Shown: positions 1,773 to 64,000 of the stretch, in pieces | Position numbering within the stretch: the stretch's first letter is position 1 | Layout of the letters: each line of letters begins with the position of its first letter | NCBI GenBank assembly: GCA_947499555.1 | Contig: CANMOU010000004.1 | Location: forward strand, 183,328 to 247,327 | Source of the DNA: an uncultured Roseovarius sp. | Lineage (GTDB): Bacteria; Pseudomonadota; Alphaproteobacteria; Rhodobacterales; Rhodobacteraceae | Reading direction: 5' to 3' | DNA length: 64,000 nt | Program-made: the position numbers and the translations under genes | The notes under the pieces: generated by a model | What the model was told of the DNA's origin: nothing | The model's database searches: none | What the model saw: the letters and a program-made list of their open reading frames with translations, nothing else

Positions 1773-1773
1773 C

Positions 1774-2388: not shown

Positions 2389-2421
2389 AACCCGCATTCG
2401 CTTCGTGGTAGGTCCAGCATC

Positions 2422-5633: not shown

Positions 5634-5827
5634 TTGGGTCTCACTCCAATGCCATTGCCCATCGCCAGAGCAGAGCTTAAATGCTGCCTCTTCCTGGTCC
5701 GTTCAAGAGCAGTAAGAAGAACATTTCTGCATCGCACCATTTACGCAGGACTATCATTGCTTTTCGCCAGCAAACCACGATACCATCCTGACATTAGATG
5801 TCACCATATTGGCGCATACTCTACCCC

Positions 5828-6532: not shown

Positions 6533-6618
6533 GCGGAGCCTCGCGACAATGTGGATTGACGGCTTTTTGCGGATCGGTTTTCAGGTTACACTAAGAAAAA
6601 CCCGAAAAGGGCTCGAGC

Positions 6619-12013: not shown

Positions 12014-12078
12014 GCACGGGAACCTTGATCGAAGCGCGGTTTGCTTAACCTACCCGCAACTGCGCTGCCTGCAAGCGT

Positions 12079-12426: not shown

Positions 12427-12611
12427 CTCTTTTTGCTCCAAAAGAGTTACTTGTTCCACGTCTCTACCCACGTTCCTTCGCCCCCGTTGGCCTTAAGGGA
12501 AGTAAGGTGTCAAAGTTCCCAAATCCTTGCCTGTCACTCAAATTCTCTCTCGAATTCTCCTAGAATTGGAAGTATCAAACGGGTCGATGGGACACTAATG
12601 AGGCGTATGCG

Positions 12612-13262: not shown

Positions 13263-13344
13263 CCAAACGCCAGGAACAAACAGCAACCTGTCTTTTCTTT
13301 GCTGAGAAATCTGCTACGTCCCCTGCAATTGGGACAGGACGCAT

Positions 13345-14322: not shown

Positions 14323-14323
14323 C

Positions 14324-14635
14324 ATGCAGACCCATAAAGCCAAACGTGTGGAGATCACGATTGAGAAGGTGATGCAAAGCCGTCTGACAGATGCGCTGCA
14401 GAAGGCAGATGTCACAGGGTATACCGTTTTGCCGGTTTTTGGCGGCTCTGGGCGATCAGGGGAATGGAACCGCTCCGGTCAGGTCGGGCGCGCGGATGGC
14501 ATGGTGCAGGTCGTCTGCATCATCCGGCCAGAACGGCTCGATGTGCTGCTCGAAGCTGCGTTTTCGGTCGTCGAGCGGCATATCGGTGTCGTCTGTGTCA
14601 CCGATTGTGAGGTTCTGCGGGCGGAGCGTTTCTAA
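14324..14635 (+). CDS. sbtB: SbtB-like PII signalling protein
   Basis: 103-aa PII-superfamily protein (ferredoxin-like fold; KRVEITIEKVMQSRLTDALQ at the N-terminus, GVVCVTDCEVLRAERF at the C-terminus). The T-loop region GGSGRSGEWNRSGQVGRADG differs from GlnB/GlnK and lacks the uridylylated Tyr motif. In cyanobacteria SbtB binds adenine nucleotides and gates SbtA. ATG 14324 is preceded by AGGAGG at 14313-14318, inside the end of sbtA. The C-terminal redox loop of cyanobacterial SbtB is not evident, although two Cys residues are present near the C-terminus. Confidence 0.88.
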   Translation: MQTHKAKRVEITIEKVMQSRLTDALQKADVTGYTVLPVFGGSGRSGEWNRSGQVGRADGMVQVVCIIRPERLDVLLEAAFSVVERHIGVVCVTDCEVLRAERF

Positions 14636-14654
14636 CGCCGCCCGGCAAAATACT

Positions 14655-16277: not shown

Positions 16278-16368
16278 AGTATATACTCCTGAAACTATGA
16301 TCTTTGGATCACCTCGTCCATTAGACGCAGGTCAATCTGCTTTTCTTGGGAGCATAATGATTTTTAAC

Positions 16369-41778: not shown

Positions 41779-41899
41779 ATGTTCGTTTTTTATCGTTTTG
41801 GCAAAACCCATTGAAAATATGGGGCTTTTTCGCTGAGACGGTGGGCGGTCACATGTTCGTATGGCGCGCGAATTTTGAAAAGCGAAAATAAACGAGCAT
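41779..41899. promoter_or_regulatory. glpD-glpR divergent regulatory region with GlpR-type half-sites
   Basis: The 258-bp gap between glpD and glpR has two exact ATGTTCGT half-sites (41779-41786 and 41853-41860) and ACGAGCAT at 41892-41899, which is close to the inverted half. E. coli GlpR binds WATGTTCGWTAWCGAACATW, so the half-site match is exact for the left arm. Both genes are likely repressed by GlpR until glycerol 3-phosphate is present. Confidence 0.65.
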
Positions 41900-41961
41900 C
41901 TGATCAAGCGATCTGTAGAATAACCGCGCGACTCGGCGAAACGGACTGGTCAGGACAACCA

Positions 41962-42726
41962 ATGGCTCAAACCCTGCGAAAACCAGAAATCATCGGCATC
42001 GCGCGACGCGAGGGCAAAGTCACTGTGGAACGGCTTGTCGACCATTTCGGAGTCACGCCTCAAACCATTCGCCGAGATCTGACCGAACTTGCAGATGCGG
42101 GCCAGCTTGAGCGGGTTCATGGCGGTGCGGTCCTTCCCTCGACCACAGTCAATATCGGCTACAAGGAACGACGCGAACTCAATCAGTCCGCAAAAGTCGA
42201 TATCGCGCGCCTTTGTGCCCGGCACATTCCGCATGATTGCTCGGTATTCCTGAATATCGGCACAACGACCGAGGCTATCGCCGCCGAACTTCTGCACCAT
42301 CAGGGTTTACTCGTGGTGACCAACAACACAAACATTGCCATGATCCTGGCCGGCAACCCAAATGTCGAAGTGGTTGTCACCGGCGGCAATCTGAGGCGCT
42401 CGGATGGCGGGCTAGTCGGCGAGTTGGCGAAGCAGACGATTGATCAATTTCGCTTTGACCTGGCGGTGATTGGCTGTTCAGCCCTAAGCGAAGGCGGCGA
42501 CATTCTCGATTTTGACATCCAGGAAGTTGGCGTTAGCAAAGCGATCATCCGCCAAAGCCAGGCGGTTTTTCTGGCTGCCGATGCATCAAAATTCGAAAGA
42601 CGTGCACCAGCAAAGATCGCCGACCTTTCGGAAGTCGATATCTTCTTCACTGATCTTCAGGTCTCTGACAGATGCGAACAGTTTTGCGCGGTGAATGGCA
42701 CCAAGATCGAACTTGCAAGCACGTAA
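41962..42726 (+). CDS. glpR: DeoR-family glycerol regulon repressor
   Basis: 254-aa repressor. N-terminal DeoR HTH (VERLVDHFGVTPQTIRRDLTELADAGQLERVHGGAV) and a C-terminal sugar-phosphate-sensing domain with LNIGTTTEAIAAEL and the ADASKFERRAPAKI loop. The ATG at 41962, preceded by AGGA, gives the usual length; the frame open from 41875 crosses the probable operator. It diverges from glpD and probably senses glycerol 3-phosphate. Confidence 0.92.
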   Translation: MAQTLRKPEIIGIARREGKVTVERLVDHFGVTPQTIRRDLTELADAGQLERVHGGAVLPSTTVNIGYKERRELNQSAKVDIARLCARHIPHDCSVFLNIGTTTEAIAAELLHHQGLLVVTNNTNIAMILAGNPNVEVVVTGGNLRRSDGGLVGELAKQTIDQFRFDLAVIGCSALSEGGDILDFDIQEVGVSKAIIRQSQAVFLAADASKFERRAPAKIADLSEVDIFFTDLQVSDRCEQFCAVNGTKIELAST

Positions 42727-51189: not shown

Positions 51190-51307
51190 GGGAATGACTG
51201 GCTGCTTGGGGGCGTCCGGTAGGCCTGCAACCAAATTTGCGAAGGACCAATTCCCAAGCACGTGGCAGGGGCTCACTAACAGGTTTAATGGGATTAAAAA
51301 GAAGATT

Positions 51308-51321
51308 TGGTGGAGCCTAGG
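51308..51321 (-). other. Candidate attachment site: antisense tRNA/tmRNA 3'-end-like string
   Basis: TGGTGGAGCCTAGG on the plus strand is CCTAGGCTCCACCA on the minus strand, which has the form of a tRNA or tmRNA 3' end with CCA. The sequence beyond it is not tRNA-like. This is what a left attachment core next to an integrase would look like if the intact gene lies at the far end of the element, outside the window. It is not proven. Confidence 0.35.
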
Positions 51322-51338
51322 TCCGTATAACCCTTGTC

Positions 51339-51424
51339 GCAGACTGTTTCATGCCGTCCCAAATTTCCATATGATTCAAACAGCATAGCGGGATATTTAT
51401 TTCATACCGTTGCAGACTGTCTCA
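51339..51424 (+). repeat. Direct repeats upstream of the integrase (candidate arm-type sites)
   Basis: GCAGACTGTTTCA at 51339-51351 and GCAGACTGTCTCA at 51412-51424 differ at one position. TTTCATGCCGT (51347-51357) and TTTCATACCGT (51400-51410) are a second pair, also with one change. They lie between the attachment-like string and the integrase start, where arm-binding sites of tyrosine integrases are normally found. Confidence 0.55.
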
Positions 51425-51464
51425 AATAATCTTATACTTTGCGGTGGGAAAAACGGTGGGAAAA

Positions 51465-52667
51465 ATGCCCAACAACCTAACTGCCAGAAAAGTTCAGACT
51501 GTTACCGAGCCGGGAATGTATAGCGACGGACAGGGCCTGTACCTTTGCGTAGCCCCCGGCGGCACCAAATCCTGGATTCTGCGCACCACGATTAAAGGCA
51601 GGCGAACGGCCAATGGGAACCCCTATCGCGTCGAAATTGGCTTGGGGTCAGTTGCTGACGTTTCATTGGCTAAGGCAAGAGAAGAAGCCTCCCCGCTTCG
51701 GCTTCAAGCACGCAAAGGTATAAATCCGCTGGATGAGCGCCGTCGCCAGATGCTCACATTCGAACAGGCCGCAAGAAAGGTCTATGAGGGTCTTCTGCCA
51801 ACGTGGCGCAATGAAAAGCACGCGCAGACCTGGTGGAGCACCGTAAACAAGCATGCCAATTCGCAATTCGGCAATCGCCCGATAGAAAGCGTCACAAGTG
51901 CTGACATACTTGATGTACTGGGGCCTATCTGGGTTGAGCGCCATGAAACGGCAAAGCGACTGAGCCAGCGCCTGTCCACGATATTCGATTGGGCGAGAGG
52001 TGCCGGTCACTACCCAAATCCCAATCCGGTTGATGGCCTCAAGAAATCCCTGCCCCACGTCAAGCGTCGTGCCGTTCATATGGCGGCACTGCCGTGGGAA
52101 GAGCTACCGGCGTTTATGTCTGTGTTATCTGAACGCAGCGGAGTATCTGCACGGACACTGGAGTTCATTATTCTGACCGCGTCCAGATCCGGTGAGGCAC
52201 GGGGCGCGCGCTGGTCCGAGTTTGATTTCAAGTCGAAGGTTTGGACGGTGCCTGCGGATCGCATGAAACGCGGGATTGAGCATCGCGTGCCGCTTTGTGA
52301 TGAAGCTTTGGCTGTGCTTGAGAAGGTTCGCGGTCTGGATGTTGAGTTTGTGTTTCCGGCAACATCACGCGACAACCGCGGCAAGGTACGTGAGCAATCG
52401 GTCATGGTGTTCAAGGCATTGCTAAGACGCATGCGACGGGAAGGTTTCACCGTGCATGGGTTCCGTTCGACGTTCCGGGATTGGTGCAGTGAAAGTGCCC
52501 ATGCTGATCGTGAGGTCGCCGAAGCTTCCCTTGCCCATGCCGTCGGGAATGAAACCGAGCGGTCGTATGCCCGCAGTGATCTGTTCGACCGCAGACGCAG
52601 CTTGATGGATGCCTGGGGGCAGTATGTGGTTGGGAAATCTGGGGATGTCGTGAGGATGGTGCTGTGA
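51465..52667 (+). CDS. Tyrosine-type integrase (DUF4102/P4-like)
   Basis: 400-aa site-specific recombinase. N-terminal DUF4102 domain (VTEPGMYSDGQGLYLCVAPGGTKSWILR), SAM-like core-binding region around 95-190, and catalytic domain with Arg in TASRSGEARG (near 241), His-x-x-Arg in VHGFRSTFRDW (near 331), His in LAHAVGNETERSY and the nucleophile Tyr near 367. Start ATG 51465 was chosen; GTG 51444 adds seven residues. Related integrases insert at tRNA/tmRNA 3' ends. Its stop overlaps the next gene as GTGA. Confidence 0.95.
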   Translation: MPNNLTARKVQTVTEPGMYSDGQGLYLCVAPGGTKSWILRTTIKGRRTANGNPYRVEIGLGSVADVSLAKAREEASPLRLQARKGINPLDERRRQMLTFEQAARKVYEGLLPTWRNEKHAQTWWSTVNKHANSQFGNRPIESVTSADILDVLGPIWVERHETAKRLSQRLSTIFDWARGAGHYPNPNPVDGLKKSLPHVKRRAVHMAALPWEELPAFMSVLSERSGVSARTLEFIILTASRSGEARGARWSEFDFKSKVWTVPADRMKRGIEHRVPLCDEALAVLEKVRGLDVEFVFPATSRDNRGKVREQSVMVFKALLRRMRREGFTVHGFRSTFRDWCSESAHADREVAEASLAHAVGNETERSYARSDLFDRRRSLMDAWGQYVVGKSGDVVRMVL

Positions 52668-53101
52668 GCGATAGACACAAGTTCGACATCTACGAATACA
52701 CTGCCATCTTTATGGCGTTGAAAAAGCATGGTTTTCCCGAGACGTTTCTCAATCGGGTTCTAAAAAAGGTCCAATCCAACACAAGCTTTAAGGGCATAGG
52801 CAGACCGGGCAAGAAGCCGCGCCAAAGCGTCGACGCACAAAGAGCACAGTTTATTGGAAAACTCAGAGAGGATTGGCCGGACGATACCGACCAAGACCTC
52901 ATATCACATGCAAAGATGTTTGGTGTATTTGAACGCAAAATCATCGAAAACAAATTGCCGAAAGACTTCATGGACGAGATGCCCGCCGAGATGCTGTCCG
53001 ACCTTCAATCTCGATCGGGACTTATATCTCGTCTATTTCCAGCTTCTTCTGATTTGAGGGCCTCGGTAAGCAGAGGCAAAAAAATATTGAGCGAAGACTG
53101 A
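52664..53101 (+). CDS. Hypothetical protein coupled to the integrase
   Basis: 145-aa soluble, basic protein starting at GTG 52664, overlapping the integrase stop (GTGA). Features: EYTAIFMALKKHGFPETFLNRVLKKV, GRPGKKPRQSVDAQRA and IGKLREDWPDDTDQDLISHAKMFGVF. No family recognised. Coupling to int suggests a role in integration/excision or element maintenance (inference). Confidence 0.75.
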   Translation: MSDRHKFDIYEYTAIFMALKKHGFPETFLNRVLKKVQSNTSFKGIGRPGKKPRQSVDAQRAQFIGKLREDWPDDTDQDLISHAKMFGVFERKIIENKLPKDFMDEMPAEMLSDLQSRSGLISRLFPASSDLRASVSRGKKILSED

Positions 53102-53223
53102 TCTAATTTGCGGAAAATTAAGACCTAGTTTTCCGAAAATGACCCTGTGTATGGGTAGCCTCTAATTCTATCAGCACAACGCTAACAGGCGCAGATTGCG
53201 CCAAAGCCTGCGAGGTGCTGAAT
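53102..53223 (+). promoter_or_regulatory. Control region before alpA-like gene
   Basis: CGGAAAA (53111-53117) and TTTTCCG (53129-53135) form an inverted repeat with an 11-nt centre. GGCGCA-GAT-TGCGCC (53188-53202) is a perfect hairpin about 20 bases before the alpA-like start. Either could be an operator for the AlpA-like protein or a helper-phage factor. Confidence 0.45.
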
Positions 53224-53424
53224 ATGACGGCAGAGAACCACGACAAACTGATTTCCGTACGGGATACCGCAGCAGCATTTGGCTGCAGTGTTGCCACTGT
53301 ATGGCGCCGGGTTGCGGACGGAACTATCCCCCAACCTGTGAAGATCGGCAGCATGACCCGCTGGTCGCTTCTTGAAATCAACGACGCGATCGAAAAAGCC
53401 AAGAACGAAAGGGTGGCCGCCTAA
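53224..53424 (+). CDS. AlpA-like helix-turn-helix regulator
   Basis: 66-aa DNA-binding protein: LISVRDTAAAFGCSVATVWRRVADGTIPQPVKIGSMTRWSLLEIND is the AlpA/MerR-like HTH with the P-x-K-x-G-x-x-x-R-W wing. ATG 53224 has GAGGTG at 53212-53217. AlpA proteins activate excision or the lytic operon in P4-like satellites, PICIs and prophages. It heads the coupled gene chain of this element. Confidence 0.92.
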   Translation: MTAENHDKLISVRDTAAAFGCSVATVWRRVADGTIPQPVKIGSMTRWSLLEINDAIEKAKNERVAA

Positions 53425-53624
53425 TGAAAAGCCCCTGCGTGCGTGCAGGGGCCTTTGCAGATTGTCTTCGTAAATTGGATGACGGGAAGATACTGCAAAG
53501 CTCGCTGCCAATCAACAGCCCTGATCTGACAAAGATCACGGCTGAGGTTCATCAATCTCACAATGAGGAGGATCACCTTCTTCCAGGCCCCATCATCAAA
53601 GCGCATTGGGGGGTGGCGGCATGA
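53424..53624 (+). CDS. Doubtful 66-aa ORF after alpA-like gene
   Basis: The ATG shares a base with the alpA-like stop (TAATG) and the stop overlaps the next gene as ATGA, which fits the coupling style of this element. Against it, the first 30 bases form a GC-rich hairpin followed by CTTTG, which resembles a terminator, and the protein (MKSPCVRAGAFADCLRKLDD) matches no family known to me. It may be real or only a linker. Confidence 0.4.
   Translation: MKSPCVRAGAFADCLRKLDDGKILQSSLPINSPDLTKITAEVHQSHNEEDHLLPGPIIKAHWGVAA
53431..53456 (+). terminator. Terminator-like hairpin after alpA-like gene
   Basis: GCCCCTGC (53431-53438) and GCAGGGGC (53445-53452) form an 8-bp perfect stem around GTGCGT, preceded by AAAA and followed by CTTTG. 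The T-run is weak (three T), so it may attenuate rather than stop transcription into the downstream genes. Confidence 0.55.
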
Positions 53625-53872
53625 AGACTGCAACAGACATCAAAGTCTTCCAGACAGTTTCAATCTGGTGGGGGGAACGCGGCTTCTCCGTTCGTGGCTA
53701 CTATCGCGGCGTAAGTTACTTCATTGAGAAATTCGACAGTCTAGATAGCGCAGTGGAGTGCGCGTTCGCGACAAATCGAAAACAACGGTCAGTCGCGCTG
53801 GTTCCAATCAAAGAAGAATTTGAGGAATTCGCCCGAAAAGCGGTTGAAGCACTGATCGGCGGTGCCGCATGA
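53621..53872 (+). CDS. Hypothetical small protein of the element
   Basis: 83-aa soluble protein: MKTATDIKVFQTVSIWWGER, then RGYYRGVSYFIEKFDSLDSAVECAF. The ATG at 53621 overlaps the preceding stop (ATGA), and its own stop overlaps the next gene as ATGA. Unknown function; coding is supported by the unbroken coupling chain. Confidence 0.65.
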   Translation: MKTATDIKVFQTVSIWWGERGFSVRGYYRGVSYFIEKFDSLDSAVECAFATNRKQRSVALVPIKEEFEEFARKAVEALIGGAA

Positions 53873-54264
53873 CCTCAATCCTCAAACAACACATGCCAGA
53901 CCCATACAAGCGGGTGGCGCGTAGCGTTGGCTATGCTCTGCTTCTTGGCCACGCCGATGCATGGCACGGTCTCTCGGTCATCGCAACGGCACGCCTTACC
54001 TTAAAGGAACGCGCGGCTATGTCCTGGGCGCTGCTTCGGAGCTTGCCGCGCGACAATGTTGTCGATGTCGCAAGCGCGGTTCTGCCCGATCAAACTGGTA
54101 CGCCCATTCCGCCGCTCTTCAACGCTATGGATGATGCCTCGCATTGGGCTGCCAACGCCAACAGCGAGGAACTTGAGGCCTATTGCTTGGCCAGCTTCAA
54201 CCGCATGGCGCCACATCGCCAGAGGGCCTTTCTCGACTTTGTTCAGGGGAGGGTTGCGGCATGA
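53869..54264 (+). CDS. Hypothetical protein of the element
   Basis: 131-aa helical protein (ARLTLKERAAMSWALLRSLPRDNVVDVASAVL; NGSEELEAYCLASFNRM-like C-terminal half). Starts in ATGA overlap with the preceding gene and ends in ATGA overlap with the next. It is not recognised; it probably belongs to the replication/control module because of its place before the RepA-like gene. Confidence 0.7.
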   Translation: MTSILKQHMPDPYKRVARSVGYALLLGHADAWHGLSVIATARLTLKERAAMSWALLRSLPRDNVVDVASAVLPDQTGTPIPPLFNAMDDASHWAANANSEELEAYCLASFNRMAPHRQRAFLDFVQGRVAA

Positions 54265-54482
54265 CAGATCGCAACGTGGAAGAACTTCTACACCATATGC
54301 CCGCTGTCCATCGTCGGGCTGAGACTGGTTGGGCCAAGGGTTTTACGGACTCAATCATCAAACAAGCAAGGCGCCGGAATTGGCGCCCTAGTCCAAAGCA
54401 AATCGGGATCATGCGCTGGCTCGTGTCTGAGCTCTTTGCTGAGGTGGAAGACCTTGATCTGATTGAGAGGTTTGAGCCGTGA
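54261..54482 (+). CDS. Hypothetical small protein before the RepA-like gene
   Basis: 73-aa basic protein (MTDRNVEELLHHMPAVHRRAETGWAKGFTDSI, then ARRRNWRPSPKQIGIMRWLVSELF). The 'SPKQ..IM..LV.EL' segment resembles small phage proteins near replication genes. Starts at 54261 in ATGA overlap; its stop overlaps the RepA-like GTG as GTGA. Confidence 0.7.
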   Translation: MTDRNVEELLHHMPAVHRRAETGWAKGFTDSIIKQARRRNWRPSPKQIGIMRWLVSELFAEVEDLDLIERFEP

Positions 54483-55573
54483 GCACAATCGTCAATATGG
54501 ACCACAGGGCAGGTGCCGGTGAGCGGTCGCAATTCTATTGCGCGGCCACGCTCAAGGACCGCGCCGTGAAGCCGCGTGAATGGTTGGCAGAGGGCCTCAT
54601 TCCCCTGAACACGGTCACCTTGTTCTCTGGCGATGGGGGCACTGGCAAGAGCCTGTTGTCGCTTCAATTGGCGGTCAGTGTGGCCGCCGGCCGTGCCTGG
54701 ATTGGAAAGCCTGTGGCCGACGGCGCCGTCATCTACATGAGCGCCGAAGATGACGACGATGAGCTGCACCGTCGTCTCGACGATATCCTGAAGGCTGGCA
54801 AGTGCACGTATGACGATTTGAAAGGCCTCACGATGCGGTCGCTGGCTGGTGAGGACGCCCTGTTGGCCGTGGACAGCCAGATGAACCTGATGCGCACCGA
54901 GCTTTTCAAAGAACTGGACGCTCGTGCGGCTGATGAAGCGCCAACACTGATCGTCATTGACACCTTGGCTGATGTTTATCCCGCCAACGAAAACGACCGC
55001 GCCAAGGTGCGCCAATTCATCGGTATTCTCCGAGGCCTTGCTCTCAAGCGCCGCTGCGCTGTTCTTCTCCTGGGGCACCCTTCGCTGACCGGGCTCAACA
55101 GTGGGTCCGGATCCTCTGGATCAACGGCCTGGAACAACTCGGTCCGGTCGCGGCTCTACCTGTCGCGAATCACAGACAATGGCTTTGAGGCGGATCCGGA
55201 TCGCCGGGTGATGACCACGATGAAGGCCAACTACGGGCGCATCGGCGAAGAGACCCACATGAAATGGCAGGCTGGTGTGTTCGTCGAAGAGCAATCAGAC
55301 GAAGGCCTCGACAAGCTCGCAGCAGGCGCCAAAGCGCAGCGCGTGTTCATGAAACTGTTGGCGACTTTCACCGCTCAAGGGCGCCGGGTGAACCACGCTG
55401 GCGGCACCACATACGCACCGAAGATCTTCTCCGAACACCCTGACGCAGAGGGCATGACAAAGCGCGCCATGAAGGCGGCCATGGAGGGTTTGTTGGCGGC
55501 GGGAAAGATCAAAATAGACACCGAAGGACCAGCCTCAAAACGGCGTTCTTTCATCGTGGAGGTGGCCCAATGA
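54479..55573 (+). CDS. RepA-like AAA_25 family ATPase (replication)
   Basis: 364-aa RecA/DnaB-fold helicase-like ATPase. Walker A LFSGDGGTGKSLLSLQLA (near residue 50), an acidic MSAEDDDDELHRRLDDIL patch, Walker B LIVIDTLADVYPANENDR (near 158), and a sensor-type segment LLGHPSLTGLNSGSGSSGSTAW. A C-terminal winged-helix-like region follows. The start is GTG 54479. Such proteins drive replication of plasmids, satellites and prophages; a repeat cluster lies directly after it. Confidence 0.9.
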   Translation: MSTIVNMDHRAGAGERSQFYCAATLKDRAVKPREWLAEGLIPLNTVTLFSGDGGTGKSLLSLQLAVSVAAGRAWIGKPVADGAVIYMSAEDDDDELHRRLDDILKAGKCTYDDLKGLTMRSLAGEDALLAVDSQMNLMRTELFKELDARAADEAPTLIVIDTLADVYPANENDRAKVRQFIGILRGLALKRRCAVLLLGHPSLTGLNSGSGSSGSTAWNNSVRSRLYLSRITDNGFEADPDRRVMTTMKANYGRIGEETHMKWQAGVFVEEQSDEGLDKLAAGAKAQRVFMKLLATFTAQGRRVNHAGGTTYAPKIFSEHPDAEGMTKRAMKAAMEGLLAAGKIKIDTEGPASKRRSFIVEVAQ

Positions 55574-55830
55574 GAAACGTTCCAACCCCCTTCCAACCCT
55601 CAATTCCAACCCCTGCCAAAGTGGGTTCCAACCCCGTTCCAACCCCCCTCCCAACCCCTGGGTTCCACTATCCCCATACCCCTATAGGGTATGCGCACCC
55701 CTTTTTGGGGGATGCGCACCCTACTTTTGGCAAGCCGAGCGCCCTGCGCGTAGCGCGCAACGGTCGCCGCTTGTCTCCCTTCTCAGCAAAACAAGAACAC
55801 CACTCAACACATGAGGCACGTCATGGCTAA
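55570..55830 (+). CDS. Doubtful ORF over the repeat cluster
   Basis: 86-aa frame starting in ATGA overlap with the RepA-like gene and running into the terminase gene. It is dominated by Pro-Thr-Pro repeats (IPTPAKVGSNPVPTPLPTP) that simply reflect the repeated TTCCAACCCC DNA. It may be a by-product of an origin rather than a functional protein, although coupling is preserved. Confidence 0.3.
   Translation: MRNVPTPFQPSIPTPAKVGSNPVPTPLPTPGFHYPHTPIGYAHPFLGDAHPTFGKPSALRVARNGRRLSPFSAKQEHHSTHEARHG
55580..55658 (+). repeat. Iteron-like TTCCAACCCC array
   Basis: Copies of TTCCAACCC(C/T) start at 55580, 55591, 55604, 55626 and 55637, with a variant CTCCCAACCCC at 55648. Start-to-start distances are 11, 13, 22, 11 and 11, close to one or two helical turns, so a protein could bind them on one face. 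The array lies directly after the RepA-like gene. Confidence 0.75.
55675..55721. repeat. Palindrome and paired repeat next to the iteron-like array
   Basis: CATACCC (55675-55681) and GGGTATG (55687-55693) form an inverted repeat around CTATA. ATGCGCACCC occurs at 55691-55700 and again at 55712-55721, 21 bp apart (two helical turns). CCCC-TTTTT-GGGG (55698-55710) forms a hairpin between them. Together with the iteron-like array this looks like a replication origin or a control site. Confidence 0.65.
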
Positions 55831-56383
55831 GGCACCGAAGAAACCCAGAAGCAAAGACGGCCGCTTTGCAGAAGGCAACAACATCTGGACGCTGAGAAAG
55901 TCTCACGGTCGGACACCGATCTTCGAGACGCCCGACGAGCTTTGGAAAGCCTGTTGCGAATACTTCGACTGGGTCGTGAAGCATCCGCTCTTCGAAGAAC
56001 GTGCCTTCGCATACCAGGCCGAGGTCGTGCTTGCCGATGTCACCAAAATTCGGGCGATGACGATTGCGGGTCTCTGCAATTTCCTCGGCATTACGCAGGA
56101 AACCTGGAACGATTGGCGAAAAAGGCGTTCGGATTTATCTGAAATCATCTCTCAAGTTGAGGCGGTGATCTGGCAACAAAAGTTCGAGGGTGCCGCGGCA
56201 GGTTTGCTGAACGCAAACATCATCTCCCGTGAGCTTGGGCTTGCAGAGAAGCGCGAGCACAGCGGTGCGGATGGGGAACCGTTTGAGCGAGAGCAGCTCT
56301 CAAAACTCGAAGTGGCCCGTCAGATTGCGTTCATTCTGGCTGAAGCTGCTGAGCACAATCCCAATCAACCAGACAATTCTTGA
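55823..56383 (+). CDS. Phage small terminase subunit (gp3-like)
   Basis: 186-aa DNA-packaging protein of the GP3_package type. Strong family features: RKSHGRTPIFETPDELWKAC near the start, CEYFDWVVKHPLFEERAFAYQAEV, the HTH MTIAGLCNFLGITQETWNDW, and the C-terminal QKFEGAAAGLLNANIISREL with GLAEKREHSGADG. ATG 55823 has GAGG at 55813-55816. It would recognise pac/cos DNA. No large terminase is next to it, which is unusual for a prophage and typical for satellites that redirect packaging. Confidence 0.92.
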   Translation: MAKAPKKPRSKDGRFAEGNNIWTLRKSHGRTPIFETPDELWKACCEYFDWVVKHPLFEERAFAYQAEVVLADVTKIRAMTIAGLCNFLGITQETWNDWRKRRSDLSEIISQVEAVIWQQKFEGAAAGLLNANIISRELGLAEKREHSGADGEPFEREQLSKLEVARQIAFILAEAAEHNPNQPDNS

Positions 56384-56401
56384 GACCAAGGAGACAAAAG
56401 C

Positions 56402-57034
56402 ATGGCACGAAACACAAAGAAACCAGTGGATCTGGAAACCCTTCACAAGCGGCTCTCTGATCAGGAGAGGCTGGTTGCTGATCTGCGGGTTCAGCAAACT
56501 GACGCGATCTTGGCCGACGAGAAATTCGATATCGCCAAGCTGCGCACAGCCATCGAGGAAATGCACGCGCTTGAGGAGGCCGTTGCAGAATTCAAGCGCC
56601 GGGAAGAGGACCGGGCAATTGCCGAGGCGGAGGCCGCACAAGCCGCATCTGCGGAAGAGCGGCTGGAAAAACGTATCGCCGACATCCGCAGCATGGCAGT
56701 TCGTCGAGAGCAGGCGATACAAGACGCTGAAACCGCAGCGCGGGCGTTCACAGACGCTGTCTTGCGGGCCGAAAACGAACGGCAGACCCTGCAAGCTGCG
56801 TTGCATTCTCTCACAGGCAAGGTACCCAGTTGCCTGATGCCAGGTGGGCAGGAAGATCGGCTTTCCAAGTCTTTTTCGGCGGTGCTTTCTGAAGCTCTGC
56901 GCAAAGGATCGTACGGTGATCTCAAACTGAGACCAGGTCTCAAAACGGCAGACCAATCCTGGTTGGCCAGTGAAATGGAAGCCGCCCGGGACATAGAGGC
57001 GGCACTTTTGAGCCTTGAAGGTGAGGAGGCGTAG
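56402..57034 (+). CDS. Coiled-coil protein, candidate ejection/scaffold protein
   Basis: 210-aa protein that is almost entirely helical: residues about 15-125 are a charged coiled coil rich in Glu, Arg, Ala and Lys (AEFKRREEDRAIAEAEAAQAASAEERLEKR). A more globular C-terminal part follows (SFSAVLSEALRKGSYGDLKL). AAGGAG precedes ATG 56402. It could be a scaffold or ejection protein, given that two giant virion-type proteins follow. Function is inferred from position only. Confidence 0.7.
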   Translation: MARNTKKPVDLETLHKRLSDQERLVADLRVQQTDAILADEKFDIAKLRTAIEEMHALEEAVAEFKRREEDRAIAEAEAAQAASAEERLEKRIADIRSMAVRREQAIQDAETAARAFTDAVLRAENERQTLQAALHSLTGKVPSCLMPGGQEDRLSKSFSAVLSEALRKGSYGDLKLRPGLKTADQSWLASEMEAARDIEAALLSLEGEEA

Positions 57035-57035
57035 C

Positions 57036-59747
57036 ATGGCGCGTATTCCCACAGCAGTGGATATGGGCCAACGCCCAATCCCAAGATCACGACGAGGCGC
57101 GCCTCAGATCAGTTTGGGTGATGCAACCGCACCGGCTCAGGCGGCGGAAGGCTTGGGCGAAGAGGTGACGCAGATCGGCGAGGTCATGGCTGACCGTGAA
57201 TTCACAGCGCTTGCCAAAGAGCGCGACGCCTATGTCGCGGAGGAACTCAGACGTATCCTCTACGATCCGGAAGACGGCTTCACGACGAAACAGGGACGCA
57301 CTGCGCTTGAAGCGCGGGCGTTCGCTCTGGATCAAATCAAGAAGCTGAAGAACAGCGCTCTGAAAGACATGCCGTCTGCGGCCAGTCGTAAACTTGAATC
57401 CAGCCTGCAGTCTCGCATCGAATCCGCTCATCTTACTGTCGACAAGCACACTGGTGCGGCCCGCAATGACTGGCTCAATGGGGCCTCAGAGGCACGTGTG
57501 AATGCTGCACTTGAGGACAGTCTTTCTGATCCCGACATGCTGGATGCAGCTCTCAGCACGATCCGGTCTGAGTATCAGGGTCGCGCGGCCAGAGAAGGCT
57601 GGTCGCGGGAGGAATACGAGTTCGAACTTTCGCAAGCCGAGTCCACGCTTTTCAAAAACGAAACCCTTCGCATCGCCGATTTGAACCCGGAAAAGGCGCT
57701 GGCGTTTCTTGAGGAGCATCAGGATCAGATTCAGCCCAGCGAATACCTGGTGCTGAAAGGCAAGATCGAGCCGCTTGCCAAAAAGGAAGCCGGGCGCCGC
57801 ATCGGTCGACTGGCGGCCATGCAGGGTGTGTCGGAGGCGTATCTCGTTGCCATCAGAGCCGCCGAAAGCGGTGGCAACGATAGCGCCAAGAACCCAAGAT
57901 CGACAGCGACGGGCCGATACCAATTCACGGCTGGCACTTGGGCTGATGTCATGCGCAAGCATCCTGAGCTGGGCCTGACGGCCGATGGCAGGCTGGACCC
58001 AACGCAACAGGAACTGGCGATCCGGGCATTCACCGCGGATAACGCGAACATTCTCATGGGGTCTGGGATCGAGCCAACAGCTGGCAATCTCTACGCCGCG
58101 CATTTCCTTGGGGCTGGCTCTGCCCTGGTCGTCCTGCGCGCGTCAGACGTGGTTCCGATGTCAGACCTGGTTTCGCCGTCGGTGATCAAGGCCAATCCCT
58201 TCCTTGCTGATATGACGGCTGGCCAATTCCGAGCGTGGTCGCAACGCAAGGGCGGTGGATCAGAAATCGCCTTCTCTGAAACCGCGGGTGGCATCGCAGA
58301 AGTTCTGGAAGCCGCGGGAGATGATCCCGACATTCGCGCTGCAGCCATCACGGAGTTCAACCTTCAGCAGTCCGCAACACTGGCCGCTTCGGAACTGGAA
58401 TCGGCAGAACTCGGTGTGCGGGTCACGACAGGTGAGGCTTCACAGCAGGAAATCGACGCGGCCCGTGATGCAGGCAAGATCACACCAAGCCGATGGGAAA
58501 CGCTAACAGAACAGCGGATCACGCTGGAAGACAAGCGCATCAAGGACGGCAAGGCTATTGAAGATTTCCGAACACACCTTGAGCAAGGCGGTAAGGGCAA
58601 TTCCTACAGCTCCGATCATCGCAAAGCGGTTGACCTGCTGGATGATCAGCTTTCGGCCCAGGTTGAGGCGGCAGGCGGTGCAGCAGAGGATCTGACCACT
58701 GCAAGGATATCGATGCTAGGCACAACGGGGGTAGCACCAAAGGGTCTTGTTGAGGATCTTCGAGGCGGCATTGCCAGCCGGTCTGAAGAGGCGCTGCTGC
58801 TGGCGGACCAGGCGATGCAGGTGGCCCCGCAGGCATTCTCAGGTGTTGAGGGCGGAAGTTCTATCGAAACCGCTGTGCGCGCTTTCCGGGCTTACGCACG
58901 GGTCGGCATGAGTTCCGAGCAAGCAGCTCGGCTGGCGATGCCCACGCCCGAAGAAAAAGAGCAGAACGCGGCTGCTGATGCCCAAATCAACAAAGAACTG
59001 AAGGAAATCGACGCGTCCGTCATCAACCAGTCCTTTGACAGCTGGCTGCCGTTTGATGCGGTGCAACTGCCGCCTCAGACCGAGACCTCGGCCTTGCGCG
59101 ATTATGAGGTTCTCTATCGTGCGGCACGTCGAGATGGCATTTTGCCAGAAGCAGCCCATGAATATGCCATGGCCGGGCTCGCGGACCCGATCAATGGCCT
59201 TTACGGCGTCTCTGCATTCGCCTCGGGGTCATTTAGCGCTGCCAAAGACCCAAACTTCATAGTCAGCGGGCTCTCGGTTGGCGATGTCACTGGCCAGGAT
59301 AACGCAGGGTCTGCGCGCGGTGTCATGCGCCTTCCTCCCGAGCGGTTCTATCCCAAGGTGGATGGCGGTCACGAATACATCGCAGAAGACATCACACAAT
59401 CCCTCGCAAGCATCGACGGCTGGGATGGTGGGGATTGGTGGTTGGTCGCCGACGAGTCCGAGACTGACCGGGCCGTCAGATTGTCCCAGCGTGGGCAGGC
59501 AGAACTGCCAGGCTATCGCGTTTACTTCATCAATGACCGGGGCGAGCTGAATTTCCGGTACTGGCGCATGGAGACGGATGACATCGCAGCGCTTCAGGAA
59601 ACGGCGCGTGAAAAGAACGCGGCGGCTTTCGAGGTAGAACGCAGGGCGTCTGAAATCGACCCAAAGACAGGCAAGCCCAAAGGCAACATTCGGTACGGAA
59701 ATGGGGTTGCCGAAAAATTCCTTCAGCCTTCAGAGGAGGGCAAGTGA
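57036..59747 (+). CDS. Large virion-type protein with lytic transglycosylase domain
   Basis: 903-aa protein. Residues about 60-255 are helical. A transglycosylase domain lies at about 265-385: SEAYLVAIRAAESGGNDSAKN (catalytic Glu), STATGRYQFTAGTWADVM, and LYAAHFLGAGSA. The rest is helical with Asp/Glu-rich segments. The layout matches podovirus-type internal virion (ejection) proteins that open peptidoglycan during DNA entry. GAGGAGG precedes ATG 57036. Its stop is TGATG-coupled to the next giant gene. I see no tape-measure-like long hydrophobic region. Confidence 0.85.
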   Translation: MARIPTAVDMGQRPIPRSRRGAPQISLGDATAPAQAAEGLGEEVTQIGEVMADREFTALAKERDAYVAEELRRILYDPEDGFTTKQGRTALEARAFALDQIKKLKNSALKDMPSAASRKLESSLQSRIESAHLTVDKHTGAARNDWLNGASEARVNAALEDSLSDPDMLDAALSTIRSEYQGRAAREGWSREEYEFELSQAESTLFKNETLRIADLNPEKALAFLEEHQDQIQPSEYLVLKGKIEPLAKKEAGRRIGRLAAMQGVSEAYLVAIRAAESGGNDSAKNPRSTATGRYQFTAGTWADVMRKHPELGLTADGRLDPTQQELAIRAFTADNANILMGSGIEPTAGNLYAAHFLGAGSALVVLRASDVVPMSDLVSPSVIKANPFLADMTAGQFRAWSQRKGGGSEIAFSETAGGIAEVLEAAGDDPDIRAAAITEFNLQQSATLAASELESAELGVRVTTGEASQQEIDAARDAGKITPSRWETLTEQRITLEDKRIKDGKAIEDFRTHLEQGGKGNSYSSDHRKAVDLLDDQLSAQVEAAGGAAEDLTTARISMLGTTGVAPKGLVEDLRGGIASRSEEALLLADQAMQVAPQAFSGVEGGSSIETAVRAFRAYARVGMSSEQAARLAMPTPEEKEQNAAADAQINKELKEIDASVINQSFDSWLPFDAVQLPPQTETSALRDYEVLYRAARRDGILPEAAHEYAMAGLADPINGLYGVSAFASGSFSAAKDPNFIVSGLSVGDVTGQDNAGSARGVMRLPPERFYPKVDGGHEYIAEDITQSLASIDGWDGGDWWLVADESETDRAVRLSQRGQAELPGYRVYFINDRGELNFRYWRMETDDIAALQETAREKNAAAFEVERRASEIDPKTGKPKGNIRYGNGVAEKFLQPSEEGK

Positions 59748-62700
59748 TGGGGTTTTATGAGACACCGCGAAACCAGGTCAGCCCTGCTGACTTCGTCTAT
59801 ATCGACAGCCCGGAGCGCGATAGCATCTCGACCATTGCAGGTGCTGCCTTTCGAACAGAAAACCTAGTCGGGGATGCCTTTCGTAGTGAAGGTAACCTGG
59901 TCACAGCGCTCGAAGCGCAAAGGCGCAGCAAGGGCGTGCTCGGTCTGCAACCCAAGTCGGTGTTCAATGCTTGGGAGCAGATTTCTGGGACAGTTTACGA
60001 GGAGTATTGGGACGCATTTGCGGGCGCACGATCACAAGCCGAAACAAATGCCATCAAACGCGACATCGATGCGCGTCTCCGGGATCGCCAGATACTGGAC
60101 AGAGCTGGTGGACGGGGTATCGCGGCTTCAATGATTGCAGGATTTTTGGATATCCCAACCCTTGTACCTGGGGCGACGGCCTATCGCGGTGCAACTGTCG
60201 GCAGCAGCATCACCCGCAATGCGCTGCGCACTTCAGCAACGGCAGCAGCCGAAGCCGTGGCTGTTGAGGCCATCCTGCATCGCTCTCAGCAAACCAGAAC
60301 CGGCGAAGAAAGCGCCTTTGCCGTCGGAGGGTCTATCATCTTGGGTGGCGTGCTGGGCGGAACGGTCGGCGCCTTCCTTCGCAAGACTCCTAGTGGGGTA
60401 CAGGCCTTCGATGCCGGAGCCGAGTTTCTTAATGGAAAAGACGTGGTCCCTGGTATTGGTTTGGATGCAGACGTTCGCAAGACCGAGGGCATTGGCGCGG
60501 ACGTCGTATCCGTGAGGCCTGAAAGCTCTGACTTTGATCTGCCGACATCAACAGCGCAAAAAGTTGTGGATTACACCCCCTCCGGAACAACCTTCGGGTT
60601 CAGCTTTATCAAGGCGCAAAGCGACGTTGCAAAGAAACTGGGTGTAGAGTTGATCGACATGCCGTTTGCAATTCGCGGTGTCGACAGGCTCGATCTCGAA
60701 CCTTCCGCCGAAACCTTTCAATCCGTCATGCTGGATCGCGTCCGCGTGGAGATAGGACGCGCCTTCAAAGGCCAATATGCCGAATACCGAAAGCAAGCCG
60801 GTATTGGACGTCTGGACGCGCTCACCGGCCGCGTTGGGGACGGAAACCTGACCGAAGCCGAATTCAACCGCCGCGTTGCCATGGCCCTTCGCAGAGGCGA
60901 CGTTGACGAAATTCCCGAAGTTCAGGCTGCAGCACGGTATCTCCGGGCCAAAGTGATTGAACCTTTGAAAGACAAAGCGATCAAGGCTGGCTTGCTGCCC
61001 GAGGATGTCGAAGTGTCGACGGCGGCATCGTATTTCACCCGGATGTGGGATGCCGACGAAATCATCCGCCGGTCAGATGAGTTCCTTGCGCGCATGGGTG
61101 CCAAGTTCCGGGGTGATTTTGAGGCGCTGAGAATGTCTGGTGAGCCAGGCTTCGACTTGTCCGATTTGGAAATCAAAGGTTATGCCGATGAAGCCGCGCA
61201 GAACGTCTTTGAGACGCTGACCGACAGAGGGCGCATTCCAGAGAACTTCGGTGTGACAGTCAAAGTGCGTGGGCCGCTGAAAGAACGCACGCTGAATGTC
61301 CGTGACATTGATTTCGAGGACTTCCTCAACAACGACGCGGAATACGTGATCAACCGCTATGCCCGTGTGATGACCGCGGAAATCGCCCTCAAGGACCGTT
61401 TTGGGTCCACTGACCTCAAGCAACAGATCAGTGACGTGAAAAATGACTATCGCGAACTTATCCAGGCTGCCCCGCGAGGCGAGGAAAGAACCAAGCTGAA
61501 GCAGGAACGTGATCGCATCATTGAACGGATTGAAGCGGTCCGGGATTTGATGCGCGGCAACTATCAGGTTGGCACCAGATCAGGTGTACCCTACCGCGTC
61601 ATGCAAAGCGCGATGACCTACAACTTCATACGCGCACTTGGCGGGTTGGTGTTGTCAGCATTGCCGGATGTGGCACGTATCGCGATGCAAAACGGCATGG
61701 GTCACTTCATGGAGGGTGGGCTTCGACCACTAGCGAGCAATCTCAAGCAGTTCAAGCTGCAGGCCAAACAAGCCCGAGAACTGGCTGGCATTGCAGAAGT
61801 AGAGTTGAACAACCGGCTGATGCGAATTGCCGATGTCGCTGATCCCGTGGGCAACCAGACGCCTGTGGAAAACGCGCTGAACTCAATGGGCGCCTTGGCC
61901 AGTACGCTTTCAGGCGGCACTTATTGGAATGACTTCCTCAAAGGTATGGCCACCCAGGTCACCACCAACCGACTGCGCAGGCTGACGGACAGCGTTGAAG
62001 ACAAAACGTTTCTGAAGCGCCTGAAGGTGAATTCCCGCGACGCGTTGGCAATCAAGGACGCCATGAACAAGCACGGCGTCGAAGTGGGCGGCGTCTTTGA
62101 TCCTCGAGTGGACAAGTGGCCAGAGCGCATCCGCGACATCTATGCCGCTGCTCTGCGCTCGGATGCGGAGACAGTGATCGTCACACCCGGCCTCGGGGAT
62201 AAAGTCCCTGCTGCGGAACATCATTTCTGGCTGAAACCAGCCCTTCAGTTCAAAAGCTTTGCCCTGGCGGCGCATAGCAGGGTTATGCTCGCAGGCCTCC
62301 AGGAAAACCAGACACGCTTTCTGATGTCATCCATGACCATGTCGTCGATGGGTATGTTTGTGTACTGGCTGAAGGTGCAATCCTCGGGGCGTGAGCCTTC
62401 CGAGAACTTGGGTACCTGGCTGGCCGAAGGTATCGACCGGTCGGGTGTGTTCCCATTGATCATGGAGGTCAACAACGTCTTTGAGAGCATTGGAGCCCCT
62501 GGTGTCTACAGCATTCTCAGCATGGGTGAAGACGAAGCCTCCCGCTATGCGGTTCGCAGCACATCCGGCAAGGTCTTGGGACCCACCGCTGGTTTGATAG
62601 AGGACACCGCCACGGTGCTGAGCCGCGTTCTGGCGCAACTGAATCCGTTGGCCAGCGAGAATGCAAAGGACATCAAGGCAGGTGATATAGCTGCGTTGCG

Positions 62701-62788
62701 ACGGCTGATCCCGTTTGGGCGGCACCCAGGCTTTAAAGAGTATCTGGATTTGCATCTGGTACCAAACTTGAAGGCCGGCGTGGAATAG
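59747..62788 (+). CDS. Giant 1013-aa virion-type protein (internal virion / ejection candidate)
   Basis: Very large protein without signal peptide. Residues about 120-210 contain Gly/Ala-rich hydrophobic segments (GGRGIAASMIAGFLDIPTL; FAVGGSIILGGVLGGTVGAFL) that look like glycine-zipper membrane-active stretches. A long helical middle follows, then further hydrophobic patches at about 625-660 and 855-875. This pattern is typical of podovirus internal virion proteins that form a trans-envelope channel. GTG 59744 is an alternative start. Family identity is by pattern, not by a recognised domain. Confidence 0.75.
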   Translation: MGFYETPRNQVSPADFVYIDSPERDSISTIAGAAFRTENLVGDAFRSEGNLVTALEAQRRSKGVLGLQPKSVFNAWEQISGTVYEEYWDAFAGARSQAETNAIKRDIDARLRDRQILDRAGGRGIAASMIAGFLDIPTLVPGATAYRGATVGSSITRNALRTSATAAAEAVAVEAILHRSQQTRTGEESAFAVGGSIILGGVLGGTVGAFLRKTPSGVQAFDAGAEFLNGKDVVPGIGLDADVRKTEGIGADVVSVRPESSDFDLPTSTAQKVVDYTPSGTTFGFSFIKAQSDVAKKLGVELIDMPFAIRGVDRLDLEPSAETFQSVMLDRVRVEIGRAFKGQYAEYRKQAGIGRLDALTGRVGDGNLTEAEFNRRVAMALRRGDVDEIPEVQAAARYLRAKVIEPLKDKAIKAGLLPEDVEVSTAASYFTRMWDADEIIRRSDEFLARMGAKFRGDFEALRMSGEPGFDLSDLEIKGYADEAAQNVFETLTDRGRIPENFGVTVKVRGPLKERTLNVRDIDFEDFLNNDAEYVINRYARVMTAEIALKDRFGSTDLKQQISDVKNDYRELIQAAPRGEERTKLKQERDRIIERIEAVRDLMRGNYQVGTRSGVPYRVMQSAMTYNFIRALGGLVLSALPDVARIAMQNGMGHFMEGGLRPLASNLKQFKLQAKQARELAGIAEVELNNRLMRIADVADPVGNQTPVENALNSMGALASTLSGGTYWNDFLKGMATQVTTNRLRRLTDSVEDKTFLKRLKVNSRDALAIKDAMNKHGVEVGGVFDPRVDKWPERIRDIYAAALRSDAETVIVTPGLGDKVPAAEHHFWLKPALQFKSFALAAHSRVMLAGLQENQTRFLMSSMTMSSMGMFVYWLKVQSSGREPSENLGTWLAEGIDRSGVFPLIMEVNNVFESIGAPGVYSILSMGEDEASRYAVRSTSGKVLGPTAGLIEDTATVLSRVLAQLNPLASENAKDIKAGDIAALRRLIPFGRHPGFKEYLDLHLVPNLKAGVE

Positions 62789-62912
62789 CGAGAATCTACG
62801 GCGTTTGCCAGATCGTCAAAACAGCCGCTAAGCTCCCTACAGTTGATTTGCGTGCCAAAATTTGAGTTCCATAATCCATTTCATCGAACGACTACCATTT
62901 GGAGAAAAGCAG

Positions 62913-63962
62913 ATGTTTAGGTCGATTTCCTTATGCATTGCGGCCGCTTTGTTCGCTCTGACTGGCTGTGTGAGAACCTACCCAACGCCGGAAGTTGACC
63001 GCGCAAGTAACTTTGCGGGGGTCCGTGATCTCGTGGCGCCGGGTGAGACCGCAAGGCTTATCTTGAGTCACGGAATGTGTTCCGCCGAACATGATTTCAG
63101 GTGGGTCCTCAAGCGCTTCAACCAGATCGCAAGGTTTGTAGGCGACGGCAACACAACAAAGTCCTCTGAGGCTCAGTTAGAAGACAGCGTCAAATATAGT
63201 AAAAATGGTGCCGTACAGATCTACAATGGGAAGATCATCGGTAGCGGTGATCGTACCTATCACCTTTCCTTCTTTGTCTGGGGGCGAGCCGTAGATGATG
63301 CCAGAGAAAACCTGGCGAAAGACAGCGGGCGCGCACCTGAGGAAGGCCAACCTCGACGCGCACTGGTCAATAATGCATTGAAGTCGTCGTTGATGAACAA
63401 ATGTCTGATTGATGCCGTCTTTTATCTTGGACCATCGGGAGATGTGATCCGCGAAGGCACCAGAGAATTATGGTGTGAGTTCCTTGGTGGCAATGTCACG
63501 AGTTCAAGCGGCCGTCTGGACGAAACCACCAAGTGCAGTGTTGGTGCGTTGCGCCCAAATTCAAATAGTCTCTCGTTTCTGGTGCCGGAGAGTCTTGGCT
63601 CTAAAGTCCTTTTCGATGGCTTCCGTCAAGTAAATGTCAGCGGTGTTTCCAAGGCTCGGGCGCTTGGGCCCGTTGGCGGGATACATCTGGTCACAAACCA
63701 GGTGCTTCTCTTGGATCAAGCTGGTCTGACAAGTTCTGAGTTAAAGCGATTGGATGACGCCGCAAATCAATCTTCTCTGGCCTCTTTCTTGAGCGAAGTC
63801 CAACCGGCAACCACAATCTTGCGTACGAAAGACGCCACTAGCGACCCGCGTGTCCCAATCGTCGCATACACTGATCCAAATGATGTCCTTGGTTACAGGC
63901 TTTTCGACGATCAGAACCCGGATTGTCCGTCGTCGGAGGTTTTGGGTCAGTTGGCTGCCTGA
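62913..63962 (+). CDS. Lipoprotein of unknown function (element cargo)
   Basis: 349-aa protein with a lipoprotein signal: MFRSISLCIAAALFALTGC ends in the lipobox ALTGC, so it is probably a membrane lipoprotein. The mature part has no recognised domain; ETARLILSHGMCSAEHDFRW near the N-terminus is distinctive. GGAG at 62901-62904 supports ATG 62913 over the in-frame upstream start at 62862. It follows the giant gene after 124 bp, so it may have its own promoter. Phage-encoded lipoproteins sometimes block superinfection, but nothing here shows that directly. Confidence 0.7.
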   Translation: MFRSISLCIAAALFALTGCVRTYPTPEVDRASNFAGVRDLVAPGETARLILSHGMCSAEHDFRWVLKRFNQIARFVGDGNTTKSSEAQLEDSVKYSKNGAVQIYNGKIIGSGDRTYHLSFFVWGRAVDDARENLAKDSGRAPEEGQPRRALVNNALKSSLMNKCLIDAVFYLGPSGDVIREGTRELWCEFLGGNVTSSSGRLDETTKCSVGALRPNSNSLSFLVPESLGSKVLFDGFRQVNVSGVSKARALGPVGGIHLVTNQVLLLDQAGLTSSELKRLDDAANQSSLASFLSEVQPATTILRTKDATSDPRVPIVAYTDPNDVLGYRLFDDQNPDCPSSEVLGQLAA

Positions 63963-64000
63963 TCTAAGGGAGGGTCTGGCGCATCTGATTGGTTTGATTA

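Follow-up and report, generated by a model that had tools for sequence, protein, structure and literature searches.

An apparently capsid-less element with its own ejection-type proteins at a tRNA-Ala gene of an uncultured Roseovarius sp., and a probable class of similar phage satellites

We analysed a stretch of 64,000 nucleotides from an uncultured Roseovarius sp. (the window; G000:C4:183328-247327, where G000 is its own genome and C1-C23 are the contigs of that genome), which ends, from position 51299 onwards, in an element that joins a small terminase gene to genes for podovirus-type internal virion proteins (ejection proteins). A preliminary description had proposed a phage satellite with the order integrase (int), AlpA-like protein, RepA-like protein, origin-like repeats and small terminase subunit (TerS), followed directly by a coiled-coil protein, a 903-amino acid (aa) transglycosylase protein and a giant protein of 1013 aa, with no capsid genes in view. 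The order from int to terS is present by Pfam, PHROG and repeat evidence, and the order behind terS and its podovirus-type match also held, although the giant has 1014 and not 1013 aa. All genes named from 51299 onward lie on the plus strand, and the features are as follows.

51299..51321, no strand: left attachment core, 23 nt, the same as G000:C2:918267-918289 in its own genome
51444..52667, plus: tyrosine integrase, three integrase domains above the Pfam cut-off
52664..53101, plus: 145-aa open reading frame (ORF) overlapping the integrase 3' end, no Pfam or PHROG family
53215..53424, plus: AlpA-like helix-turn-helix regulator/excisionase (phrog_66, 8e-9; HTH_17 below the Pfam cut-off)
53606..53872, plus: 88-aa ORF
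53869..54264, plus: 131-aa ORF, no assigned function
54183..54482, plus: 99-aa ORF
54479..55573, plus: RepA-like AAA_25 replication ATPase/helicase (PF13481, 5e-37; phrog_906, 1e-31)
55579..55660: iteron-like direct repeats GTTCCAACCCC, four copies with starts from 55579 to 55636, a possible replication origin
55811..56383, plus: TerS of the P22 gp3 type (PF16677, 6e-28; phrog_606, 4e-51)
56402..57034, plus: coiled-coil protein, an orphan with weak Pfam and PHROG matches only
57036..59747, plus: gp15-position ejection protein of 903 aa with an SLT lytic transglycosylase (LT) domain
59744..62788, plus: gp16-type giant ejection protein of 1014 aa (phrog_342, 2e-97; phrog_16310, 2e-104)
62862..63962, plus: 366-aa ORF without a family, lipoprotein-like by eye, which runs at its 3' end into the terminal repeat
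63924..64000: 77-nt repeat common to the ends of contigs C10, C9, C1 and C8

The terS, coiled-coil, transglycosylase and giant genes are intact and tightly packed, with a gap of 18 bp from the end of terS to the start of the coiled-coil gene and overlapping frames thereafter. The transglycosylase protein begins at an ATG at 57036 in a frame open from 57015, carries ESGG at residue 277 and matches SLT at 2e-4, just under the Pfam cut-off, and phrog_4067 (transglycosylase) at 1e-22. The giant aligns with phrog_342, 'internal virion protein with endolysin domain', across residues 10-1001 of 1014 and is also matched by our local gp16 profile, and it thus has the make-up of a full-length internal virion protein; a sequence-profile search of the PDB with the giants found nothing, and the giant alone as query retrieved no relative from the viral contigs. 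The window TerS is 60% identical with that of locus L003. Searches with the other genes gave a single distant Azospirillum match for RepA in plasmids, nothing useful for the 131-aa ORF in the viral contigs and, for the coiled-coil ORF in 394 family genomes, its own copy and one weak coiled-coil match.

The absence of head genes was examined with profiles for the large terminase subunit (TerL), portal, coat, adaptor, nozzle, gp14 and gp16, all built from ordinary phages. The first five gave no match in 51299-64000, which bears out the earlier statement that no capsid genes are in view, and none on the rest of C4, the whole of C5-C10, C2:900000-932028, the ends of C1-C3 and C1:208000-227000. Together with six further elements described below, the window element forms a set of candidates in which seven of seven match gp16 and none of TerL, portal, coat, adaptor or nozzle, and 83 of 88 control loci match at least one of these five families, the five non-matching controls holding only 109-5149 bases upstream of the giant. 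By family, the controls detected (n=88) numbered 40 for TerL, 45 for portal, 69 for coat, 75 for adaptor and 80 for nozzle; many control loci are cut, some supplied profile members and few are T7-like. The gp14 profile detects only 18 of the 88, so that its silence in all seven candidates, the coiled-coil ORF of the window included, carries little weight. The interiors of C1-C3 were searched with PF05876, PF03237 and PF12236 only, which are weak probes here: among five relatives' TerLs, that of L003 alone matches PF03237 at E<=0.001, and PF12236 gave 0 of 1 in our genome and was silent in its controls too. Given the poor sensitivity of PF03237, its single match in this genome, at C1:217369, is hardly informative, and no local TerL profile matches there (L029). 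The ORF concerned (G000:C1:217114-219645) lies, by eye, between mltG-like and cysE-like genes with no capsid genes seen beside it, and is perhaps of the gene-transfer-agent type.

A scan of species genomes with the giant returned 10 loci, of which one is a 3-kb fragment (L138), five are ordinary and four lack head genes (L135, L136, L143 and L144); two further capsid-less elements lie in genome G551 (locus L226), which alone matched at full length among the 88 hits to our query A4 in 394 family genomes, and on an Eleftheria terrae plasmid (L194). The sources of the six are Pleomorphomonas, a soil metagenome-assembled genome, Pontivivens, Thalassobius, G551 and the Eleftheria plasmid. L135 and L136 each hold an integrase, an AlpA-like gene (39% by tblastn), a primase, a transglycosylase/lysozyme protein and a giant, the giants being 92% identical, and L143 and L144 each hold genes for an integrase, a helicase-like protein and a small protein, along with one for a 1280-aa protein in which a lysozyme-like domain is fused to a T7 gp16-type body. 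Direct repeats at a tRNA 3' end flank five of the six elements; no tRNA was found for L135.

L136: 15.7 kb, 24-nt direct repeat, 92%, tRNA-Thr
L143: 18.9 kb, 19-nt direct repeat, 100%, tRNA 3' end
L144: 12.9 kb, 19-nt direct repeat, 100%, tRNA 3' end
G551: 13.9 kb, 32-nt direct repeat, 94%, tRNA 3' end
Eleftheria: 14.7 kb, 24-nt direct repeat, 88%, tRNA 3' end

The ejection genes of these relatives are conserved, which is not expected of a decaying prophage. For the pair L135/L136, the ratio of non-synonymous to synonymous substitution rates (dN/dS) of the transglycosylase/lysozyme protein (0.131) and of the giant (0.090) compares with that of int (0.060), the primase (0.086) and two host genes (0.070 and 0.132). 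Among L143, L144 and G551, gp16 is 71-73% identical and the helicases 33-67%, and the sole alignable pair of integrases (L143/G551) is 26% identical, so that on these alignments gp16 is the best-kept full gene of the three elements; its dN/dS is 0.125-0.168, a rough estimate at the near-saturated dS of 1.26-1.68, and lies near the 0.096-0.131 of three phage-phage gp16 pairs. Over the five of six relatives in which ejection genes were measured (all but Eleftheria), dN/dS ranges from 0.09 to 0.17, which shows purifying selection on these genes.

A tree of 45 giants, built by a quick method, requires four changes of the capsid-less label, at least three of which are forced by supported branches; L031 and L033 are labelled as phages on it, though their cut loci show no head gene. 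The window giant pairs with that of phage L030, L135 and L136 fall among phages, Eleftheria stands apart on a long branch and L143, L144 and G551 group near T7-like phages, in a group that includes L284, L286 and L287 once these are added. A single clade of the three gp16 satellites was neither shown nor rejected (p-AU 0.19). These data point to several probable origins of satellites that retain ejection proteins but have shed the shell.

The link to T7-like phages came from four viral contigs (L284-L287) that matched the gp16 body. Three are phage-like, portal, coat, adaptor, nozzle, gp14, gp16 and TerL being matched between L284, L286 and L287; L285, which is identical with L284 over 6596 bases, has a gp16 match only. 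The gp16 proteins of L143, L144 and G551 are 70-74% identical with those of L284, L286 and L287, as close as the satellites are among themselves, and blastn similarity (E<=0.01) between the three satellites and the phage contigs ends at the edges of the gp16 gene. This indicates that gp16 was probably acquired as a single gene, with no adjoining phage gene left. The motif ACCCACATACTAGNCCTAA stands directly after gp16 in the phage contigs (with 2 mismatches in L286), and in L287 also before the coat gene. In G551 it occurs twice on the plus strand, at 7291-7309 (3 mismatches) and 7439-7457 (1 mismatch), between a resolvase-like gene and the helicase and gp16 genes and upstream of the latter. 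At <=3 mismatches it was found 0 times in 200 shuffles, in 733,465 bases of other bacterial DNA and in 1,573,557 bases of 80 other podovirus loci. ACCCACATACTAGNCCTAA is thus a putative promoter for the RNA polymerase of the helper.

The same data bear on a variant of the satellite interpretation, not exclusive of it, in which the ejection proteins of the satellite act as faulty or competing parts in helper heads and lower helper infectivity, their main use then being to inhibit the helper. The match of gp16 to a particular phage family at such identity, and its place in G551 downstream of helper-type motifs, would fit a competitor produced late in the infection by the helper; on the other hand, gp16 is kept at full length under about phage-level constraint, and a poison could be a fragment. 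We regard interference of this kind as a tentative possibility.

Some of these elements carry defence-like cargo, as L143 encodes a PDLC03002 helicase (14239-16335, 6e-128) and L136 a capP-like protein (15013-15576, 7e-25), both by PADLOC, and capsid-less elements may therefore carry defence genes. In line with such cargo, the ejection-type proteins themselves could also be imagined to serve superinfection exclusion or defence, acting at the envelope of the resident cell against incoming phage DNA. This seems very unlikely, as exclusion has no obvious need of full-length virion proteins that carry a peptidoglycan domain, and PADLOC gave no match for the window 366-aa protein or for the L143 helicase beside gp16, the giants being outside that scan.

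Several other features were seen in and around these elements. The twins L135 and L136, which come from two genomes, share nearby host genes that look hemY-like and tsaD-like by eye. A protein of 138-142 aa, 39-52% identical, is conserved in the gp16 elements (L143 3207-3635, L144 5784-6203, L226 5754-6170), and the copy in L143 matches neither PHROG nor Pfam. Related ORFs stand beside gp16 in L226 (14567-15556, 329 aa) and L194 (11887-12750, 287 aa); they are 31% identical over 98 aa and match no PHROG. A first scan of the viral contigs with A4 gave lysozyme-like domain matches only, and our query A5 gave one match there, L283 (IMGVR_UViG_3300047160_005167, 1-14786), which holds an L136-type giant (29%) with 10 kb upstream and a resolvase-like ORF. 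L283 matches the gp16 profile only, with no head/tail or TerS profile match, and is a further capsid-less candidate.

Taken together, these data indicate that capsid-less satellites with their own ejection proteins are probably real and recurrent. We propose, with a probability of about 0.6, that they form a recurrent and undescribed class ('ejectosome satellites') in Alpha- and Betaproteobacteria, which would borrow the head and the terminase motor of a helper and bring ejection proteins of the helper's kind; the class would have at least three origins, one lineage having the gp16 of a T7-like family and, in at least one member, helicase and gp16 behind the putative promoter of that phage. 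The window element is itself, at somewhat better than even odds, a capsid-less phage satellite integrated at a tRNA-Ala gene.

A number of observations weigh against the satellite interpretation of the window element. Contig C4 stops exactly at window base 64000, inside the 77-bp repeat, so that the right end of the element is unseen, and a gap between C4:247327 and C2:932028 is unassembled. The closest giant, that of L030 (57% identity), lies in an ordinary phage contig, and in the window lineage either capture or deletion could thus be recent. The giant is present in 2 of 391 order genomes, its own and that of an ordinary phage, and no second genome was found with the order terS, coiled-coil, LT and giant. 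With local profiles of three TerS types, neither L283 nor any of the other six elements yielded a TerS. The promoter role of ACCCACATACTAGNCCTAA is one that we infer, and the motif is clear in one of the three gp16 elements: L143 has a site with 4 mismatches between resolvase and helicase, no better than shuffles, and L144 has none; nor is any motif shared by the 160 bases upstream of gp16 in the three.

The ordinary relatives of the window proteins show what a complete neighbourhood looks like. Vibrio phage 1.138.O, ctHz2215, TL-2011b and a prophage of G264 all have their genes for TerL, portal, coat, adaptor and nozzle ahead of those for the transglycosylase protein, the giant and a tail fibre; in G264, and wherever a gene is unannotated, the names come from tblastn or from position. 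Only TL-2011b has an annotated TerS, which lies directly before TerL and does not match the window TerS. In 385 class genomes, 253 matched phrog_342 at E<=1e-12, and among the matches listed our own, G971 and G911 alone extend beyond the transglycosylase domain, the last two being ordinary phages. Eight other family genomes hold a relative of the window TerS, directly followed, by eye, by a TerL-like ORF in G489, G146, G565 and G494 and by an ORF of 478-500 aa, of a kind unclear by eye, in G228 and G098. In G299 (L130) and G369 (L132) no TerL-like ORF was seen just downstream by eye, and these are possible further satellites.

This layout is the starting point for the view that the window element is a decayed prophage, a podovirus that lost the genes from TerL to nozzle between terS and the ejection genes and was then interrupted by an insertion sequence. 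The head block absent from the window sits exactly between terS and LT in TL-2011b, and here would fit between terS (ending at 56383) and the coiled-coil gene (starting at 56402); the right end of the window is a repeat junction, and the placement of the nearest giant in an ordinary phage and the single copy of the gene order are also as this view expects. Yet the four genes from terS to the giant are uninterrupted, LT is preceded by an orphan gene that cannot be recognised as the gp14-type gene of phages (a weak point, given the sensitivity of that profile) and comparable capsid-less elements are conserved in other genomes. We therefore hold decay to be a somewhat doubtful explanation. The earlier idea of a satellite with its own ejection proteins is supported by the other capsid-less elements, most with both ends seen. 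The preliminary description had taken a lack of homologous elements elsewhere as a sign of decay, and other genomes do hold elements of this kind, although with a different gene set. The idea is less secure for the window element, whose right end is missing and which might have lost its block in this way.

The 23-nt left attachment core begins 9 bases left of the element start given in the preliminary description, and its counterpart on C2 takes in the 3'-terminal 14 nt of an intact tRNA-Ala(GGC) gene and the 9 nt that follow. When C2:916999-919999 was compared with 15 genus relatives, the main match stopped at the tRNA 3' end in 14 of them, within 6 bases of it in 13 and 26 bases past it in G123; the fifteenth, G650, matches only an inner part of that region. 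The DNA beyond the tRNA-Ala gene is therefore not common to the relatives, and the site is an occupied hotspot. A host gene in the window (41875..42726, plus strand, glpR-like by eye) has a 91% identical counterpart in G653 about 0.9 kb beyond tRNA-Ala, which indicates that the right ends of C4 and C2 face the same tRNA-Ala site; a search with the window left flank in 20 genus genomes, its own included, gave the own match only. Beside tRNA-Ala, C2:918290-932028 holds accessory DNA with resolvase-like, proteasome-like, universal stress protein, fasciclin and thermonuclease ORFs (by eye); this DNA possibly forms the other side of the island that holds the element. The 77-nt terminal repeat is a probable insertion-sequence edge at which assembly stopped.

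An ordinary prophage that simply runs off the window was rejected, since the contig ends at 64000 and no head genes occur in the rest of the genome searched; a TerL-portal-coat block downstream, which the preliminary description had named as the mark of an ordinary prophage, is thus missing from C4, C5-C10 and the searched ends of C1-C3, while the contig itself goes no further. A complete prophage could have been broken by assembly, its remainder lying in the C4-C2 gap: the two ends do face each other there, and the interiors of C1-C3 were probed weakly. However, no head/tail profile matched C4 outside the element or the other regions searched, and a unique block of 10 kb should have assembled; contigs C11-C23 are <= about 1.2 kb each. 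We consider this unlikely.

If the window element is a satellite, its life cycle might run as follows. Satellites with their own TerS use it with the TerL of the helper for packaging. Helper infection or induction would set off excision by AlpA and Int, and the RepA-like ATPase would replicate the element from the iterons. The P22-type TerS would then join helper TerL in bringing satellite DNA into helper heads, and the element's own LT (gp15 position) and giant (gp16 position) would be built into these heads at the portal, with or instead of those of the helper. In the next cell the ejection proteins would leave ahead of the DNA, cut peptidoglycan and form a periplasmic/inner-membrane conduit, the net result being a borrowed particle with part of the entry machine supplied by the element. 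This scheme draws on what is known of T7 and P22 (the available part of PMC8954989) and on TerS biology. If it is true, control of DNA entry itself is worth parasitising, and these elements offer a natural system for testing the exchangeability of ejection proteins between particles; the pairing of G551 with T7-like phages predicts a helper family and a promoter and makes the helper question directly testable.

In comparison with known systems, the window element has likeness to T7 gp15/gp16 and their P22 homologues through the phrog_342 match of the giant and differs in being without head genes; TerL, portal, coat, adaptor and nozzle, which mark a podovirus prophage, gave no match in the element or in the contigs and ends searched. 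PICI-type satellites (phage-inducible chromosomal islands) are defined by an integrase, a regulator, a replication gene and their own TerS without TerL, portal or coat, and depend on a helper for the head and for packaging and transfer. The window element shows this gene content, with its AlpA-like regulator, over the 12.7 kb seen, its right end being unseen. Phage-inducible chromosomal minimalist islands (PICMIs) of the Vibrionaceae are likewise small islands without capsid genes, and the available part of PMC10803314 gives for them a model of int, AlpA and a DUF3987/DUF5906 primase, a reduced gene content, fis as integration marker and no named virion gene. L136 has all three model genes (int, the AlpA-like gene by tblastn and DUF3987 at 1e-87), whereas in the window int and the AlpA-like gene are present, AAA_25 replaces the DUF3987 primase and TerS and the ejection proteins are extra; neither is integrated next to fis, the core lying at tRNA-Ala in the window and at tRNA-Thr in L136.

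Charybdis elements, as far as the available part of PMC12324425 describes them, are different from the window element. According to the podovirus ejection review PMC8954989, either the gp15 or the gp16 homologue can carry the peptidoglycan hydrolase domain. The word 'satellite' is absent from that review, as is the word 'ejection' from the satellite review PMC11389934. A literature search by title and start of abstract, with few subscription journals, gave among the matches listed no satellites with ejection or internal virion proteins. The accessible part of PMC11389934 has satellites redirecting packaging, reshaping capsids or making capsids. The capsid-forming PICIs (cf-PICIs) treated there resemble the window element in supplying part of the particle; they supply capsids, whereas the window element, with no coat or portal match in the part seen, would supply ejection proteins instead. 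Known satellites steal heads, resize heads, redirect packaging or make their own coats, and one that brings entry proteins without a shell would belong to the undescribed class proposed above.

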